A stretch of DNA of 64,000 nucleotides from NCBI RefSeq assembly GCF_004209775.1, contig NZ_CP035914.1, forward strand, positions 1,116,001 through 1,180,000, read 5' to 3'. This DNA comes from Synechococcus sp. WH 8101. GTDB taxonomy: Bacteria > Cyanobacteriota > Cyanobacteriia > PCC-6307 > Cyanobiaceae. Below are positions 31,032 through 52,608 of this stretch, one piece after another. Numbering within the stretch: position 1 is the first letter of the stretch; the number at the start of each line of letters is the position of its first letter. The translations under genes and the position numbers were made by a program. The notes under the pieces were generated by a model, which was given only the letters and a program-made list of their open reading frames with translations, was not told the DNA's origin and made no database searches.

Positions 31032-31211
31032 CGGGGATTTGTGCTGGGATTCAGTGGCTTTGGTAACGGCGCGAACGCCACGGTGGTTGACGCCGGGTCT
31101 AAGAAGGGGATGTAGCAACAGCTACCAAGCGTTCACTCCACCACTTGCGTGGAGCGCAGTTCGATCCAGGCCAAGGAACGGGGACCTGGACTTGCTCCGA
31201 GGAACTGAATC

Positions 31212-31379
31212 ATGACCCTGACCTATCGCGGCCAGACTGTCCAGCAGCGCCACGCTGCCGTGACGATGACCAAGCCTGCCCTGACCTACCGGGGCCAGGC
31301 CGTGGCCGAACGCAAAGGTGCAGCAGCCACGGCAGTTCACCCTGCCCTGACCTATCGCGGCACGACCTATCGCAAGTGA
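31212..31379 (+). CDS. DUF4278 protein with three LTYRG repeats
   Basis: This 55-residue protein is too short for most ORF callers. It contains LTYRGQTVQQR, LTYRGQAVAER and LTYRGTTYRK, the motif that defines the cyanobacterial DUF4278 family, here as three tandem copies. Function unknown. A strong terminator follows 38 bases after the stop. Its 3' tail and terminator recur at about 38.01 kb. Confidence 0.75.
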   Translation: MTLTYRGQTVQQRHAAVTMTKPALTYRGQAVAERKGAAATAVHPALTYRGTTYRK

Positions 31380-45974: not shown

Positions 45975-46153
45975 GAGCAACTGACGCTTGATGGCGCAGC
46001 GACGGGACGCCTGCAGGAACACCCCGCCCGGCAAGGGGCGATGGCAGACAAGAAGGTGCGATGAGCAGCGGCGCACAGCGGCTCGCTGCGATCGCACCAG
46101 AGCAAGCAGCCCAATCGCCTCGCGTCAGCCCTTGCCCAGGGGTGACCCTGGAG

Positions 46154-46196
46154 AGGCCCGGCGCAGCGTTTCTTGCGGCGCCTCCGGGAGTGGATG
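46154..46196. repeat. Left copy of direct repeat flanking the guanidine cassette
   Basis: AGGCCCGGCGCAGCG, then TTGCGGCGCCTCCGGGAG and TGGATG, matches 53687-53728 in the same orientation with about five differences and one indel. Sequence between the copies is more A+T-rich than either flank. Confidence 0.7.
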
Positions 46197-46290
46197 GTGA
46201 TGAGATACGGCTGATTCACAAAATTGGCTTTGTCGGAGCTTTGTGACTGTTGTTACATGTCTGGCAAGTAACGATCGATAGCTTAAGAAG

Positions 46291-46443
46291 GTGTCCACGA
46301 GAGGATTTTTGGGCTTCCTGAGATCATTTTGCTTGTTCGCTGGCATTTCGCTGTTGTCAGCAGCTGGCTTAATCGCAACCGCACATCCTGATCATCAAGA
46401 CCGTGGTCATCACGAGATACAGCACGACCATGAGCACAAGTGA
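46291..46443 (+). CDS. Tiny secreted His-rich peptide, possible metal binder
   Basis: A GTG-initiated frame codes 50 residues: a signal-like N-terminus (FLRSFCLFAGISLLSAAGLI) then a mature part with DHQDRGHHEIQHDHEHK, seven His in 17 residues. A stop codon lies four codons upstream of the GTG; AAGAAG directly precedes the start. It is the first gene inside the repeat-flanked cassette and ends about 70 bases before the guanidine riboswitch. GdmH needs nickel, so a periplasmic nickel (or zinc) chelator is plausible, but this is inference. Confidence 0.55.
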   Translation: MSTRGFLGFLRSFCLFAGISLLSAAGLIATAHPDHQDRGHHEIQHDHEHK

Positions 46444-46510
46444 TCCGCACTGACTCACGAAAACCGTAGTGGTTGGCACTGTTTCCAGGCTGCGTTTAGT
46501 CCACTCTAAT

Positions 46511-46618
46511 AAAGCGGGAGTAATACCTAGGGTTCCGGCTCAATTGAGCGCTGGTCCGAGAGGTATCGGCCGATTTTTTTCGGTTGCACGGAGGGATAAA
46601 AGCCCGGGAGACCGCTTT
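46511..46618 (+). ncRNA. Guanidine-I (ykkC) riboswitch
   Basis: The conserved core is present in order: CTAGGGTTCCG (46528-46538), CTGGTCCGAGAG (46551-46562) and ACGGAGGGATAAAAGCCCGG (46588-46607). The ends form a 7-bp P1 stem: AAAGCGG (46511-46517) with CCGCTTT (46612-46618). The aptamer binds free guanidinium and switches expression on. The gdmH ATG is 20 bases after the stem. No clear intrinsic terminator is seen, so control could be translational or through the P1 region. Confidence 0.92.
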
Positions 46619-46637
46619 TCTCCATCACACTCTTGTC

Positions 46638-47828
46638 ATGGCATCTGAAATAGGCGCTGAGAGCGCTTTCGATCGATCGCAGTCAACAGAGGGTCAACGT
46701 GCTCTCGAGAAAGAACATTTTCTCCCTCTTACTGGTTGGCAACAGGAAGTTGATCAAGCTCATCGCTTCGGATTAGAAGCTGCTGAAAGTATTGTTGATC
46801 GCAACATTTCCACGTTCTCCAGAGGTGAACTGCCCCACTTTGCGGGTATCAACACCTTCATGAAGGCGCCCTACATCGAAGATGTGAATCGCGTTGGCGA
46901 GTTCGATGTGGCCATCGTTGGTGTACCCCATGACAGTGGCACCACCTACCGTCCAGGGACCCGTTTTGGCCCGCAGGGAATCCGGCGCATTTCAGCGTTG
47001 TACACGCCCTATAACTACGAGATGGGTGTCGATCTGCGGGAGCAGATCACGCTTTGTGATGTGGGCGATATTTTCACGATTCCAGCCAACAACGAGAAGA
47101 GTTTCGATCAGATTTCGAAGGGCATCGCTCACGTGTTTGCCAGTGGTGCCTTTCCGATCATCCTGGGGGGTGATCACTCGATCGGATTCCCTACAGTCCG
47201 CGGCGTCTGCCGACACCTGGGCGATAAGAAAGTCGGCATCATCCACTTTGACCGTCATGTCGATACCCAGGAGATTGACCTCGATGAGCGGATGCACACC
47301 TGCCCGTGGTTCCACGCCACGAACATGGCCAATGCACCGGCCAAGAACCTTGTGCAGCTAGGAATCGGCGGATGGCAGGTGCCCCGTGAAGGGGTGAAGG
47401 TCTGCCGCGAGCGCGGTACCAATGTTCTTACGGTGACTGACATCACCGAGATGGGTCTCGAGGCTGCTGCCCAGATTGCGATTGAGCGCGCTACCGACGG
47501 CACGGATTGCGTTTACATATCATTCGACATCGATTGCATCGATGCTGGATTTGTTCCGGGTACCGGTTGGCCAGAGCCTGGTGGTTTGTTGCCCCGTGAG
47601 GCCCTGAAGCTTCTCGAGCTGATTGTGCGCAATGTGCCGGTGTGCGGTCTTGAAATTGTGGAGGTATCTCCGCCTTACGACATCAGTGATATGACATCAC
47701 TCATGGCCACACGTGTGATCTGCGACACGATGGCTCATCTAGTCGTGAGCGATCAATTACCGCGCAAGGAAAAGCCCAGCTGGATCAGTGATGTCTGCAA
47801 CATGAATGTGGATCAGAAGTGGAGGTAA
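46638..47828 (+). CDS. gdmH: Ni-dependent guanidine hydrolase
   Basis: The ureohydrolase-fold enzyme hydrolyses guanidine to ammonium and urea. Its 396 residues and sequence resemble the Synechocystis Sll1077 type, not ordinary agmatinase. Metal-binding motifs are ILGGDHSIGFPTV, IIHFDRHVDTQE and SFDIDCIDAGFVPGTGWPEP. Guanidine hydrolases have a long N-terminal extension, seen here (about 1-60, HFLPLTGWQQEVDQAHRFGL). A guanidine riboswitch lies upstream and nickel-chaperone genes downstream, both strong support. The ATG at 46638 is used; an upstream TTG at 46584 lies inside the riboswitch. Confidence 0.93.
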   Translation: MASEIGAESAFDRSQSTEGQRALEKEHFLPLTGWQQEVDQAHRFGLEAAESIVDRNISTFSRGELPHFAGINTFMKAPYIEDVNRVGEFDVAIVGVPHDSGTTYRPGTRFGPQGIRRISALYTPYNYEMGVDLREQITLCDVGDIFTIPANNEKSFDQISKGIAHVFASGAFPIILGGDHSIGFPTVRGVCRHLGDKKVGIIHFDRHVDTQEIDLDERMHTCPWFHATNMANAPAKNLVQLGIGGWQVPREGVKVCRERGTNVLTVTDITEMGLEAAAQIAIERATDGTDCVYISFDIDCIDAGFVPGTGWPEPGGLLPREALKLLELIVRNVPVCGLEIVEVSPPYDISDMTSLMATRVICDTMAHLVVSDQLPRKEKPSWISDVCNMNVDQKWR

Positions 47829-47831
47829 GTC

Positions 47832-48212
47832 ATGCATGAAGTCGACATGACGAAATGTTTAGTGCTTTCGATGAATGAATGGCGTCAGCAGCACGATCCG
47901 GATGTTCCGAGTGTCACTCGGGTCAACTTACAAGTCGGTCAATTTACATGTGTGGAGCCAAAACAGCTTGAATTGACTTGGCGTGTTGCCATTTCCAATA
48001 GTTGGCTTGAAGGCGCAGAACTGTCTATTGAGGAAATTCCATTAGTTGCGCGTTGCATTTGTTGCCATAAAACCTACTCCCCAGCTGTTGATAATGCTTA
48101 TAAGTCTCCTTGTTGCGAGCATCCGATGGAGGATATAGTTGCTGGTCGTGAACTACGGATAAAATCTGTTGATTTTAGCTTTACCCCCGAACCTTCCACT
48201 TTGCCTGCTTGA
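47832..48212 (+). CDS. ghaA: HypA-like nickel chaperone for guanidine hydrolase
   Basis: The 126-residue HypA homologue has the nickel-binding N-terminus [10 protein letters not shown] and a zinc site with paired Cys ([19 protein letters not shown]). It is not near hydrogenase genes but three bases after gdmH, so it should load nickel into GdmH together with GhaB. Its stop overlaps the next start by four bases (ATGA). The cassette becomes more A+T-rich from here on. Confidence 0.9.
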
Positions 48213-48919
48213 TCATGCACATGCCACTTAATGACACATTAGGTCTGAATCTGCTTAGCGCTAACATCCATCAGGCTGAGCACAATCGTGAGTCTTTTGA
48301 CGCATGGGAGTTGCTTTGTCTCAATGTCATGAGCAGCCCGGGAGCAGGTAAGACATCGCTTCTTGAGAAATCACTCTCGATGCTTTCACCAGAGCTGTCA
48401 ATGGCTGTTCTTGAGGGGGATATGACAACTCAGCTTGATGCCCAACGTCTAGAAGCTATTGGTGTGCCAGTTGTGCCAATCACTACTGGCCGCTCTTGTC
48501 ATCTCGATGCCTCTATGGTGAATGGAGGTTTAAAGCTACTTTGCGAGAGGCTCAAACCCACAGAGCTTGATATTTTGTGGGTCGAGAATGTCGGGAATCT
48601 TGTGTGCCCAGCTGAGTTTGAGGTTGGCGAGCATCGAAAAGTGGCGCTTCTCAGCGTTACTGAAGGTGACGATAAACCACTTAAGTACCCAATTATGTTT
48701 CGACAGGCTGACGTGGTTCTCATTACAAAGGTGGATTTGCTTCCACATCTTCCTGTTAATGTCAATGCATTTCGTCAAAATATTCTCAATATAAATCCCC
48801 ACGCAACCGTCATTGAAGTGTCAGCGCTTAGTGGCGAGGGTCTTGAGGAGTGGCACCAATGGCTTCGCCAAGCTTTATCAAGCCATTCAGCAAAGGTTTC
48901 TGCTCTGGCTCCTGCTTGA
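48209..48919 (+). CDS. ghaB: HypB-like nickel-insertion GTPase for guanidine hydrolase
   Basis: The 236-residue G3E GTPase has Walker [17 protein letters not shown], switch region [15 protein letters not shown], the nickel/zinc CH pair in [13 protein letters not shown], and specificity [14 protein letters not shown] hydrolysis drives metal transfer from GhaA to the client. The His-rich tail or CxxCGC motif of some HypB proteins is absent. It is part of the same operon. Confidence 0.92.
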
Positions 48920-48956: not shown

Positions 48957-49958
48957 ATGACTAAACAACTGCGCAATCTTCTTTTTGCAGGTCTTTCCAT
49001 TGTACTTGCAGTGGCTTGTTCCAGACCATCCGTTCCAACTTCAGGTGGCACTCCAATCGTCTTGGGTTACAGCAACTGGGCTGGATGGTGGCCATGGGCT
49101 ATTGCGGTAGAGGAGAAAATGTTTGAAAAGAATGGTGTCAATGTCGAAATGAAGTGGTTTGATGGCTATGTGCAATCGATGGAAACCTTCGCTGCTGGGA
49201 AAATCGATGGCAACTCTCAGACTCTTAACGACACAATCTCCTTTCTTCCAGGAGAAAATGGTGGAGAGGTAGTTGTCCTTGTTAATGACAATTCATCCGG
49301 TAATGATCAGATCATTGCTGACTCGTCAATTAAGACAGTTTCTGATTTGAAAGGCAAAACTGTCGCCGTCGAGGAAGGAGTTGTCGATGATTACTTATTA
49401 AGCCTCGCACTTAGGGACGCTGGCATGAATCGTAACGATGTAATCATTAAAGGTATGCCTACCGATCAGGCTGCTACAGCCTTTGCTGCTGGCCAAGTTG
49501 ATGCCGTTGGAGCATTTCCCCCTTATACCGGTACGGCAATGCAACGCCCGGGAGCGCGAGTGATTGCCACTTCCAAGGAATTTCCTGGTGCTATTCCTGA
49601 TCTTCTTACTGTGAGCGGAGATCTTATCAAAGAACGGCCTGATGATGTGCAGAAGATTGTCGACACATGGTGGGATGTTCGCGAATTTATGGTTAAAAAT
49701 CCCAAAAAAGCAGAAGCAATTATGGCCAAGCGAGCTGGCATCCCTACTCAAGAATATGAACAATACAAAAATGGAACACGTTTCTTTTCAATCAAAGATA
49801 ACCTTGAAGCATTCAGTCCTGGTCAAGGTATGCAGCACATGCCTTATGCCGCTGAATCAATGGCTGACTTCATGGTTTCTGTCGGCTTCATTCCTGAAAA
49901 GCCTGACATGAGTAACCTTTTTGACGATAGCTTTGTCGAGAAATCGGCTGCATCCTGA
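48957..49958 (+). CDS. ABC importer substrate-binding lipoprotein (NMT1/SsuA type)
   Basis: The 333-residue protein from the ATG at 48957 has a lipoprotein signal (FAGLSIVLAVACSRPS) and a NMT1/THI5-like periplasmic domain: LGYSNWAGWWPWAIAVEEKM, then KTVAVEEGVVDDYLLSLALR and FAAGQVDAVGAFPPYTG. Aromatic residues (WAGWWPW) could cup a cation. Synechocystis has a like-placed importer after its gdmH-ghaAB genes. Substrate is likely guanidine or a derivative. Its stop overlaps the permease start. Confidence 0.85.
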   Translation: MTKQLRNLLFAGLSIVLAVACSRPSVPTSGGTPIVLGYSNWAGWWPWAIAVEEKMFEKNGVNVEMKWFDGYVQSMETFAAGKIDGNSQTLNDTISFLPGENGGEVVVLVNDNSSGNDQIIADSSIKTVSDLKGKTVAVEEGVVDDYLLSLALRDAGMNRNDVIIKGMPTDQAATAFAAGQVDAVGAFPPYTGTAMQRPGARVIATSKEFPGAIPDLLTVSGDLIKERPDDVQKIVDTWWDVREFMVKNPKKAEAIMAKRAGIPTQEYEQYKNGTRFFSIKDNLEAFSPGQGMQHMPYAAESMADFMVSVGFIPEKPDMSNLFDDSFVEKSAAS

Positions 49959-50785
49959 TGACTGTCACGACCACCGTTGGTACTAAGGGGAGAAACATCA
50001 AGTTTCTCTCCATTTTCCAACTGGGTGTTATGCCATCCAAGACCGTTCGTGGCGGTCTGCAGGTGACATCTCTTCTCGTTCCATTCCTCTTCTGGGTCGC
50101 CATAGCTTCTTTCGATTTGGTGGATGCGAAGTTCCTGCCTTCTCCTCAGGCTGTCTTTCGTTCCCTTCTCTCCATGGCTCAGAGTGGTGTTCTTTTCCAA
50201 GACATAGTGGCCAGCACTGGTCGTGTCTTTGTTGGATTTTTTCTAGCAACACTACTTGCTGTTCCGATTGGTATTTATATGGGTGTTTATCCAGCATTCT
50301 GTTCATTATTAGAGCCACTAATTGCCATGCTAAGGTACATGCCCGCCGCAGCATTTATTCCACTCCTCATTATCTATTTGGGCATCGGTGAGGAGCCAAA
50401 GATAGCACTTATCTTTATAGGGACGCTTTATTTTAATATTTTGATGGTAATGGATGCCGTTAAATTTGTCCCAAAAGAGCTTATTGAGACAACGCTTACA
50501 CTAGGAGGTCGTAGTCGTCATATTTTGGTTCAAGTAGTCGCCCGCTACAGTTTGCCGAATATCATTGATACACTTAGGATTAATATTGCCACCTCCTGGA
50601 ATTTGGTTGTTGTTGCTGAACTGGTAGCGGCTGAGGTTGGTCTTGGCAAACGCATCCAATTGGCGCAGAGATTCTTTCGTACGGATCAGATTTTTGCTGA
50701 GCTTATTGTTCTTGGCCTCATTGGTTTTGCTATCGACATGGGATTTAGGATTTTACTCCGTGTCAGCTGTAAATGGGCTGTTTGA
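49958..50785 (+). CDS. ABC importer permease
   Basis: The 275-residue SsuC/TauC-type permease has about six membrane segments and the ATPase-contact loop around ETTLTLGGRSRHILVQVVAR (EAA motif). Helices include LLVPFLFWVAIASFDLV and IAMLRYMPAAAFIPLLIIYL. It overlaps the binding-protein gene by one base and is followed after three bases by the ATPase gene. Confidence 0.88.
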   Translation: MTVTTTVGTKGRNIKFLSIFQLGVMPSKTVRGGLQVTSLLVPFLFWVAIASFDLVDAKFLPSPQAVFRSLLSMAQSGVLFQDIVASTGRVFVGFFLATLLAVPIGIYMGVYPAFCSLLEPLIAMLRYMPAAAFIPLLIIYLGIGEEPKIALIFIGTLYFNILMVMDAVKFVPKELIETTLTLGGRSRHILVQVVARYSLPNIIDTLRINIATSWNLVVVAELVAAEVGLGKRIQLAQRFFRTDQIFAELIVLGLIGFAIDMGFRILLRVSCKWAV

Positions 50786-50788
50786 ACA

Positions 50789-51544
50789 ATGGAACTTCGA
50801 GCTACAAATCTCTCTAAGCGATTTGGAGATAAATTGGTTCTCGATCAACTCACATTTTCGATTGACTCAGGTGAGTTTATAACATTCGTTGGCAGTTCTG
50901 GGTCAGGAAAAAGCACGATCTTGCGCCTGGTTGCTGGGCTTGATCATCCGAGTGATGGCTTCCTTTCTGTAGATGGTTCGCCTATACAGGGACCTAGCCC
51001 AGACCGAGGAATGGTTTTCCAAAAATACAGTCTTTTCCCGTGGCTTACTGCCGCTGAAAATGTTGCCTTTGGCATGAAATTGCAAAATTTAGATCAAAGG
51101 GAGATTAAAGATCGAACTTCATACTTCCTTGAGGTTGTTGGTCTCTCGGATTCTGGTTCTAAATTGCCTCGCGAACTTTCTGGAGGCATGCAACAGAGAA
51201 TTGCTATTGCACGGTCACTCGCAACTAACCCGAGGCTCTTGCTTCTAGACGAACCCTTCGGGGCATTGGATTTGCAGATTCGAGAATCTATGCAAGATTT
51301 TCTTCTTAGCCTTTGGAGAACTACAGGTTTGACGGTATTGCTTATTACCCATGATGTTGAAGAAGCTCTTGTATTATCCCAATGTATTCATGTTCTTGCT
51401 CCTAATCCTGGGCGTATCATCCGTTCATTGCATGTTGATTTGGATAAGAGTGACCTCGATCAACTCCGTATGAGCAGTACTTTTCTAGCTATGCGACGCT
51501 CTCTTTCATCCACAATGCGGGAGTTGGAGCCGACATTATGCTGA
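50789..51544 (+). CDS. ABC importer ATPase
   Basis: A 251-residue SsuB/TauB-type ATPase with Walker A FVGSSGSGKSTILRLV, Q-loop VFQKYSLFPWLTAAEN, signature ELSGGMQQRIAIARSL, Walker B LLLLDEPFGALD and switch His in LITHDVEEAL. All catalytic residues are present. It overlaps the Rieske gene by seven bases, so the oxygenase is made together with the importer. Confidence 0.9.
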   Translation: MELRATNLSKRFGDKLVLDQLTFSIDSGEFITFVGSSGSGKSTILRLVAGLDHPSDGFLSVDGSPIQGPSPDRGMVFQKYSLFPWLTAAENVAFGMKLQNLDQREIKDRTSYFLEVVGLSDSGSKLPRELSGGMQQRIAIARSLATNPRLLLLDEPFGALDLQIRESMQDFLLSLWRTTGLTVLLITHDVEEALVLSQCIHVLAPNPGRIIRSLHVDLDKSDLDQLRMSSTFLAMRRSLSSTMRELEPTLC

Positions 51545-52608
51545 GTAAGTCTTTTCTTGCGACATCCTTTTATCATGGCCCTGAAGTGCATCATTGGGAT
51601 TGCAATTTTTATGCAAAACAGTTCTGGCATCCCTTGCTAGCACTTTCTCAATTAAAGCAAGGAGAATCTATTGGTTGCATGCTTTTGTCTCAACGCATTA
51701 TAATTACCTGGCCTATTGGTGATCGTCCCCGAGCGTTTCTGAACCGCTGCCCCCACCGTGGTGTTGCTTTCCGTGCTGACAGCGTATCCGCTAAATCTTG
51801 TCGTCGTTTTGTCTGTCCGTACCACGGTTGGACTTATGACTTGCATGGCAATCTTCTTGCGGCTGCACGTGAATCCGAATTTGATGATAATTTTGATCGA
51901 AAGCGCTGGAGCTTGTACGAACTTCCATGCCGTATTGATGGACCATTGATTTGGGCCTCATTAAGTGAATGTGCTCTACGGCTTGATGAACAGTTGCACT
52001 TGATACACGATTTGACTGGGAATGAATGGAATACTTCTCTTCAAATGATCCATCACTCCCGACGACATATTTCGTGCAACTGGAAAATTGCTCACGATAA
52101 CACTCTTGATGATTATCACGTTGCGATTGCTCATCCTAAAACCCTTCATCGCGAGCAAGGTCCTGTTCGCAATTATGTTTACCGCTTTAGTCGCTACTGC
52201 AATTTATTGCAAACCCCATTTTTAGGTGGTGGTCATTTTTTTACCTTTGGTTTTCCGCCTTGGAGTCATGTGCTTGTCTGGCCAGATTCACGCATAGCAC
52301 TAATTGAATTTCTGCCAGATCAGCCCGATTGTTGCGTGATGCAGCTCCGTTTATTTGCGAAACATGACTCCATTGACTCGACCTCCGCAAGTAAATGGTT
52401 AACTCACTTACTCTGTTTCCTGGAAGAAGATAGGATGCTTGTTGAGTCGGCTCAGCATGGGTATGACTCTGAGTTTACACCTGGTCCACCCCACAGACTG
52501 GAACAAAGAATTTTGCATTGGCAAGAGCTTTATCGAGAGCTTTTTGATTCTTCCGGAGTTACTAGTGCGCTACGCAGCCAAGAGGCCATCTCTGAGTTCA
52601 ATATTTGA
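51538..52608 (+). CDS. Rieske non-heme iron oxygenase
   Basis: The 356-residue protein has a Rieske [2Fe-2S] domain with CPHRGVAFRADS and FVCPYHGWTYDLHG (Cys-His and Cys-His ligands) about 70-100. A mononuclear iron centre follows: NWKIAHDNTLDDYHVAIAH, with two His and bridging Asp, and a late acidic ligand (FLEEDRMLVES). This is a single-chain oxygenase of the vanillate/betaine demethylase kind, which oxidise or dealkylate small molecules using a reductase. No reductase is in the cassette. By context the substrate may be an N-substituted guanidine (inference). The 3' end overlaps the convergent TIM-barrel gene by 79 bases. Confidence 0.88.
   Translation: MLSKSFLATSFYHGPEVHHWDCNFYAKQFWHPLLALSQLKQGESIGCMLLSQRIIITWPIGDRPRAFLNRCPHRGVAFRADSVSAKSCRRFVCPYHGWTYDLHGNLLAAARESEFDDNFDRKRWSLYELPCRIDGPLIWASLSECALRLDEQLHLIHDLTGNEWNTSLQMIHHSRRHISCNWKIAHDNTLDDYHVAIAHPKTLHREQGPVRNYVYRFSRYCNLLQTPFLGGGHFFTFGFPPWSHVLVWPDSRIALIEFLPDQPDCCVMQLRLFAKHDSIDSTSASKWLTHLLCFLEEDRMLVESAQHGYDSEFTPGPPHRLEQRILHWQELYRELFDSSGVTSALRSQEAISEFNI

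Follow-up and report, generated by a model that had tools for sequence, protein, structure and literature searches.

The guanidine-I riboswitch that precedes gdmH in Synechococcus sp. WH 8101 stands behind a promoter with the geometry of an NtcA-activated class II promoter, and the promoter elements, like the ability of the aptamer ends to pair with one another, are conserved among the copies of its family, the Cyanobiaceae. We consider it fairly probable that promoter and riboswitch together form an AND gate for nitrogen starvation and guanidine, with guanidine acting after transcription initiation. More tentatively, we propose that the NtcA promoter sets the first transcribed base within a ligand-stabilised helix (P0), and that guanidine would in this way clamp the 5' end of the mRNA and control its stability, its translation or both; the result would be a family-wide, terminator-free gate that was later given up by Prochlorococcus and by lineages of the RCC307 type.

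The aptamer and the gdmH operon

A cmscan search of the 64-kb window (the whole stretch of 64,000 nucleotides analysed, from a genome that is a single contig of 2.63 Mb) returned a full-length match to the guanidine-I model RF00442 (model positions 1-107) at 46516-46612 of the plus strand, with 81.0 bits (gathering score 63; E = 7.5e-13). The sole further Rfam match at E<=10 between 46450 and 46680 was a sub-threshold one to a microRNA family. The three conserved ykkC blocks, CUAGGGUUCCG, CUGGUCCGAGAG and CACGGAGGGAUAAAAGCCCGGGAGA, are intact, and the start codon of the arginase-family gene gdmH lies at 46638, so that the original prediction of a guanidine-I riboswitch with all three blocks, directly before gdmH, is upheld. 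That prediction also included a 7-bp closing stem: the complement exists in the DNA (AAAGCGG at 46511-46517 and CCGCTTT at 46612-46618, with the gdmH ATG 19 nt further on), but only its inner 4 bp (GCGG/CCGC) are conserved. According to the cited part of the structural work, the guanidine-I class is marked by a conserved adenosine, A46, where subtype 2 has a pyrimidine (PMC6031431); in 72 aligned copies every adenosine of the CCGAGAG/CCAAGAG block, which may include A46, is invariant. Covariance score and downstream guanidine genes confirm the element as a guanidine-I riboswitch (ykkC subtype 1), with a predicted response to guanidinium. An open reading frame running from 46584 through the aptamer into gdmH was set aside as a chance one, because the spacing of aptamer and start codon, taken modulo 3, varies widely among relatives.

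The first gene behind the aptamer, gdmH (46638-47828, plus strand, 396 aa; PF00491, E = 4.5e-78), is annotated as a Ni-dependent guanidine hydrolase of the arginase family and is 84-97% identical to loci in 80 named Cyanobiaceae contigs (the best 80 of 563 loci). On the same strand it is followed by genes for a hypA-type nickel chaperone (47832-48212; TIGR00100 above cut-off), a hypB-type nickel GTPase (48209-48919; TIGR00073 above cut-off), an ABC transporter binding protein of the SsuA/NMT1 type (48957-49958; TIGR01728 above cut-off; the frame is open from 48813 and the start was placed by us at the Met of MTKQLRNLLF), the transporter's permease (49958-50785; PF00528) and ATPase (50789-51544; PF00005), and a Rieske / ring-hydroxylating oxygenase alpha-like protein (51538-52608; PF00355 and PF00848). 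Both ntcA and urease alpha are present in the WH 8101 genome, and urea released from guanidine could therefore be used. Elsewhere in the window, a glutamine-II riboswitch aptamer (31127-31190, plus strand; 68.7 bits, gathering score 33) lies 21 nt upstream of a 55-aa open reading frame with LTYRG repeats (31212-31379).

Element and operon have been described before, and their identity is therefore not new: the marine Synechococcus guanidinase cluster Syn-eCAG_001, in the part of its account cited here, has a ykkC riboswitch immediately upstream, HypAB, a TauABC-like transporter and a Rieske protein, the same aptamer class and gene order as in the window, and its gdmH is reported as orthologous to sll1077 (PMC10119275). 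Operon-wide induction was predicted for that cluster (PMC10119275), and in guanidine-producing Synechocystis the operon's proteins are reported at raised levels (PMC8390497); in WH 8101, too, guanidine would be expected to induce the whole operon.

Promoter geometry and a putative P0 helix

Upstream of the aptamer, an NtcA-type box, GTAGTGGTTGGCAC (GTA-N8-CAC; 46466-46479, plus strand), is followed after 22 nt by a -10 box, CACTCT (NANNNT; 46502-46507, plus strand), and the centre of the NtcA-type box lies 41.5 nt upstream of the predicted start. As a GTAN8NAC-type pattern with a -10 box occurs five times in the window (two plus-strand and three minus-strand matches), we weighed the promoter by its conservation across leaders, using all 110 family matches to RF00442 (34 existing loci and 76 fetched, with L113, whose core CCAGGG had escaped the pattern search, added by hand). 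A GTAN8NAC match begins somewhere from -52 to -44 in 107 of the 110 leaders (all but L044, L112 and L140), compared with 0.045% of shuffles, and the -10 box begins exactly 12 nt before P0 in 105 and is off by one in the remaining five. When the leaders were aligned on GCGG and reduced to 48 representatives differing in more than 35% of their upstream bases, the profile showed GTA at -48 to -46 (92, 88 and 88%), AC at -36/-35 (88 and 88%), A at -11 (96%) and T at -7 (94%), while the T of the TAN3T -10 consensus is without conservation. A strict TAC half-site is found in 16 of the 110 boxes, and the window box reads CAC. A 50-aa open reading frame (46291-46443, plus strand), hydrophobic in one stretch and rich in histidine at its end, stops 22 nt before the NtcA-type box.

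NtcA-activated class II promoters carry GTAN8TAC at about -41.5 according to the cited part of PMC3898017. With that canonical promoter the family shares GTAN8(T/C)AC at -41.5, the 22-nt spacer and the NANNNT -10 box, and differs from it in having mostly CAC for TAC and in a predicted start that falls on the opening base of a riboswitch helix (PMC3898017). The leader promoter has the class II NtcA geometry, and NtcA would be expected to bind it; by the same geometry, transcription is predicted to start on the first base of P0, at about 46514 (plus or minus 1), so that the outer AAA of the 7-bp complement would probably be untranscribed. The original prediction missed this promoter; with it, guanidine becomes just one of two likely inputs. 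Outside the family, 26 of 48 aptamers have a strict NtcA-type box in the 200 nt before them, where 1.2 were expected, these 48 being the best-scoring loci and not all class matches; box-to-aptamer distance is scattered there rather than fixed. Such boxes fit the report, in the cited part of PMC10094980, that sll1077-1082 of Synechocystis is down under excess ammonium. Several other cyanobacteria (L058, L060, L061, L067 and L007/L024) carry divergent pairs of guanidine-I aptamers about 330-390 bp apart, some with strict NtcA-type boxes in between.

The arms of the P0 helix, GCGG (46514-46517) and CCGC (46612-46615, both plus strand), enclose the aptamer, and in nearly all Cyanobiaceae copies GCGG stands before P1 and CCGC next to the aptamer tail. 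At least four pairs can be formed in 106 of the 110 family leaders, against 38% with shuffled 3' arms, while outside the family the figure is 21 of 48 against 28% shuffled; among the remaining family copies, three have 3 bp and one has fewer. With L115 left out for its broken core, the innermost pair is G-C in 107 of 109 copies and U-A in two AT-rich ones, and in three copies the outermost position holds an A-C mismatch; the core is so nearly invariant that covariation support is thin. An extension of P0 beyond 4 bp found no support, the outer three pairs doing no better than slid controls and a slide of +3 scoring higher on covariation. In ligand-free folding of 96 leaders the mean probability of P0 was 0.009, and P0 therefore either needs the ligand-bound fold or does not form. 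The cited part of PMC6031431 describes a P0 helix in the PRPP aptamer and reports it absent from guanidine aptamers. In the present leaders the two ends of the aptamer are complementary over a short stretch, and we infer that P0 would form there on ligand binding.

The registration of promoter and helix also suits an account in which guanidine-stabilised P0 hides the mRNA 5' end from RNase E-type decay, and the ligand works mainly on half-life, not on ribosome access. In its favour, the -10-to-P0 distance is exact in 105 of 110 leaders while the distance from P0 to CUAGGG ranges from 10 to 15, box positions relative to the aptamer are scattered in other cyanobacteria, P0 is hardly formed in ligand-free folding, and a guanidine-III riboswitch is reported, in the cited part of PMC12186494, to act on RNA stability via RNase E. 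A helix of just 4 bp, which shrinks to 3 in three related copies and to fewer in one, speaks against it, and we regard this account, taken by itself, as rather unlikely.

It is also conceivable, if improbable, that not NtcA but a different regulator of the CRP family, or promoter strength, accounts for the conservation of the GTAN8NAC box and GCGG. The low count of strict TAC halves (16/110) and a second, weaker NtcA-model match in the WH 8101 genome would fit; but position, spacer and half-site agree with the NtcA rule as given in the cited part of PMC3898017, strict boxes precede 26 of the 48 other aptamers against 1.2 expected, and ammonium lowers the operon in Synechocystis (PMC10094980, cited in part).

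The missing terminator and the linker

Under one scoring rule for both sets (a -10 kcal/mol threshold and a T-rich end), a terminator-like hairpin on the aptamer tail was found in 8 of the 110 Cyanobiaceae copies, compared with 42 of the 48 best-scoring aptamers of other cyanobacteria. In the latter, the tail AAGCCCGGGAGA of the aptamer also serves as the 5' strand of a terminator hairpin that a T-rich stretch ends; cyanobacteria outside the family thus differ from it both in this mostly tail-built terminator and in having no fixed box-to-aptamer distance. The same rule found no terminator hairpin on the aptamer tail of the window copy, no terminator-like pattern occurs in 46000-47000, and a search of the genomes of 40 relatives gave no Rho above cut-off, the weak matches being, we think, related ATPases; Rho-dependent termination was set aside on that ground. 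The terminator used by other cyanobacteria appears to be lost in the Cyanobiaceae. The earlier remarks that no obvious intrinsic terminator was seen and that the expression platform may be unusual therefore stand, the second for the family as a whole.

Conventional attenuation of transcription, at a terminator overlooked in our scans, would be the usual guanidine-I mode (PMC12186494, in the part cited) and would match the tail hairpins of the 42 other cyanobacterial copies; against a T-rich-ended hairpin in only 8 of 110 family copies and not in the window copy, the lack of a terminator pattern in 46000-47000, a P0-to-start-codon gap of only 22 nt and the lack of a Rho match above cut-off in the 40 relatives, we hold it to be very unlikely. 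That the aptamer is instead a subtype 2 (PRPP or ppGpp) riboswitch, as a P0 helix, known from the PRPP aptamer and reported missing in the guanidine one, might suggest (PMC6031431, in the part cited), was rejected as extremely unlikely, since the core blocks fit the guanidine-I model, the CCGAGAG/CCAAGAG adenosines are invariant in the 72 aligned copies and the downstream genes are guanidine genes, not purine or amino-acid biosynthesis genes. PRPP and ppGpp riboswitches have a P0 made from the aptamer ends, as the present leaders may have, and differ in ligand, core and genes, and, in the cited parts of PMC6031431 and PMC5912903, in having P0 in the binding pocket and terminator control.

Between P0 and the start codon lies a pyrimidine-rich linker (46616-46637, plus strand) without a Shine-Dalgarno-like tetramer, which is the likely expression platform. 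The 96 distinct family linkers compared are 52% C and 12% G, and 84 of them lack such a tetramer, the other 12 all being of one linker type, which contains AGAGG. In ligand-free sequestration tests on the family, linker pairing had a mean z of -0.74, with 12 of 96 at p<0.05, p-values that are too small because the 110 sequences share kinship; linker and start region together were a little more closed than in the shuffled-linker controls (mean open fraction 0.408 vs 0.437; 64/96), mostly via P3 and the tail. The window linker paired with P3 and tail no better than shuffles did (p = 0.37 and 0.78), and its open fraction of 0.45, against 0.42 when shuffled, indicates no sequestration effect. The direct sequestration tests being small or negative, the switching step is one that we infer.

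Two candidate arms were rejected. The linker motifs CUCCC and CCUCCGUG resembled an anti-aptamer arm, with up to 11 bp in L127; as a conserved switching arm, this pairing was weak in family shuffle tests and negative for the window copy, and tail/linker covariation failed for A-type tails, the own tail being better in 12 and worse in 22. The 5' arm of the window mRNA pairs strongly with the linker (GCGGGAGU/ACUCUUGU; 7.5 vs 2.1 pairs), and as a general mechanism this was dropped, the family lying below shuffles with 20 of 96 above.

For the gate that we favour, the following course may be envisaged. In cells short of nitrogen, NtcA with 2-oxoglutarate would start transcription of the leader, and binding of guanidine to that leader would allow gdmH, the nickel chaperones and the importer to be made. 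The ligand-bound aptamer would be closed by the 4-bp P0, formed by the first bases of the mRNA and those just past the aptamer, leaving the pyrimidine-rich, mostly Shine-Dalgarno-less linker free ahead of the start codon; when guanidine is lacking, the linker could pair with P3, with the tail or, in the window copy, with the 5' arm, and translation would be hindered. Guanidine would thus act after initiation, on translation or on mRNA stability, and translation control and 5'-end protection would be compatible with each other.

Distribution, losses and meaning

RF00442 was found in 19 of 60 relatives, in 110 of 400 genomes of the family and, at the level of the class, in 206 of 388 genomes at E<=0.001, with 199 above cut-off. 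Within the genus of WH 8101 (31 genomes), the three genomes that have gdmH (at least 92% identity) are also the three that have the aptamer. Among the best 80 of 563 gdmH loci in named genomes, the aptamer was recognised by pattern in 62 of the 64 non-Prochlorococcus loci. The two others, Synechococcus RCC307 and a related MAG, carry a decayed aptamer before gdmH (L183 1324-1500 and L182; 24.0 and 20.6 bits vs 63), in which the strict NtcA box, -10 box, GCGG/CCGC, P1-like stem and aptamer tail are kept and the binding core has decayed. This uneven decay, in which the NtcA box, the -10 box and P0 outlast the ligand-binding core, supports the AND gate. At the 16 Prochlorococcus gdmH loci (L231-L246) among the same best 80, Rfam detected no aptamer and GTAN8NAC was absent from the 330 nt upstream; these loci have in common a conserved AT-rich stretch upstream.

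In a Prochlorococcus-like genus, that of genome G416, gdmH is present in 54 of 266 genomes and the aptamer in two, both times on a contig separate from gdmH. At the G416 locus (L165 6920-11358), the aptamer precedes genes for a binding protein, a permease and an ATPase; this binding protein shares only 21% identity with that of the window, and next to the set lie an isochorismatase/biuret-hydrolase-like gene and the genes for nitrile hydratase alpha and beta. At a locus of genome G422 (L166 10386-11055), which adjoins metal-transport (znu-like) genes, the aptamer lies directly before a gene whose 183-aa product gave a weak CopG-like match; this type of gene is new for guanidine-I.

Promoter, P0, missing terminator and the RCC307 and Prochlorococcus losses are not treated in the cited part of the Syn-eCAG_001 account (PMC10119275). 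The riboswitch and operon of Synechocystis are covered in PMC8390497 and PMC12186494; as far as the cited parts go, sll1077-1082 of strain PCC 6803 (its gdmH operon) has aptamer class and operon in common with the window and is lowered by ammonium (PMC8390497, PMC10094980). No tie of NtcA to the gdmH cluster was found in the literature searched, consulted in part, and overlap with Itzenhauser et al. (2025, PNAS, e2519335122) is possible. As far as that literature shows, the promoter and the switching part are new, and the riboswitch class and operon were known.

Nitrogen often limits picocyanobacteria, which are major primary producers, and guanidine has only recently been recognised as a nitrogen source. 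Control by NtcA and guanidine together, if true, would explain when cells pay for guanidine import and hydrolysis, and the model predicts a defined start site, two-input induction and unchanged termination. The Prochlorococcus and RCC307-type losses offer natural comparisons. If the proposal is right, one family has kept the sensor and exchanged its terminator for a 5'-terminal helix, and would clearly illustrate how one expression platform can replace another.
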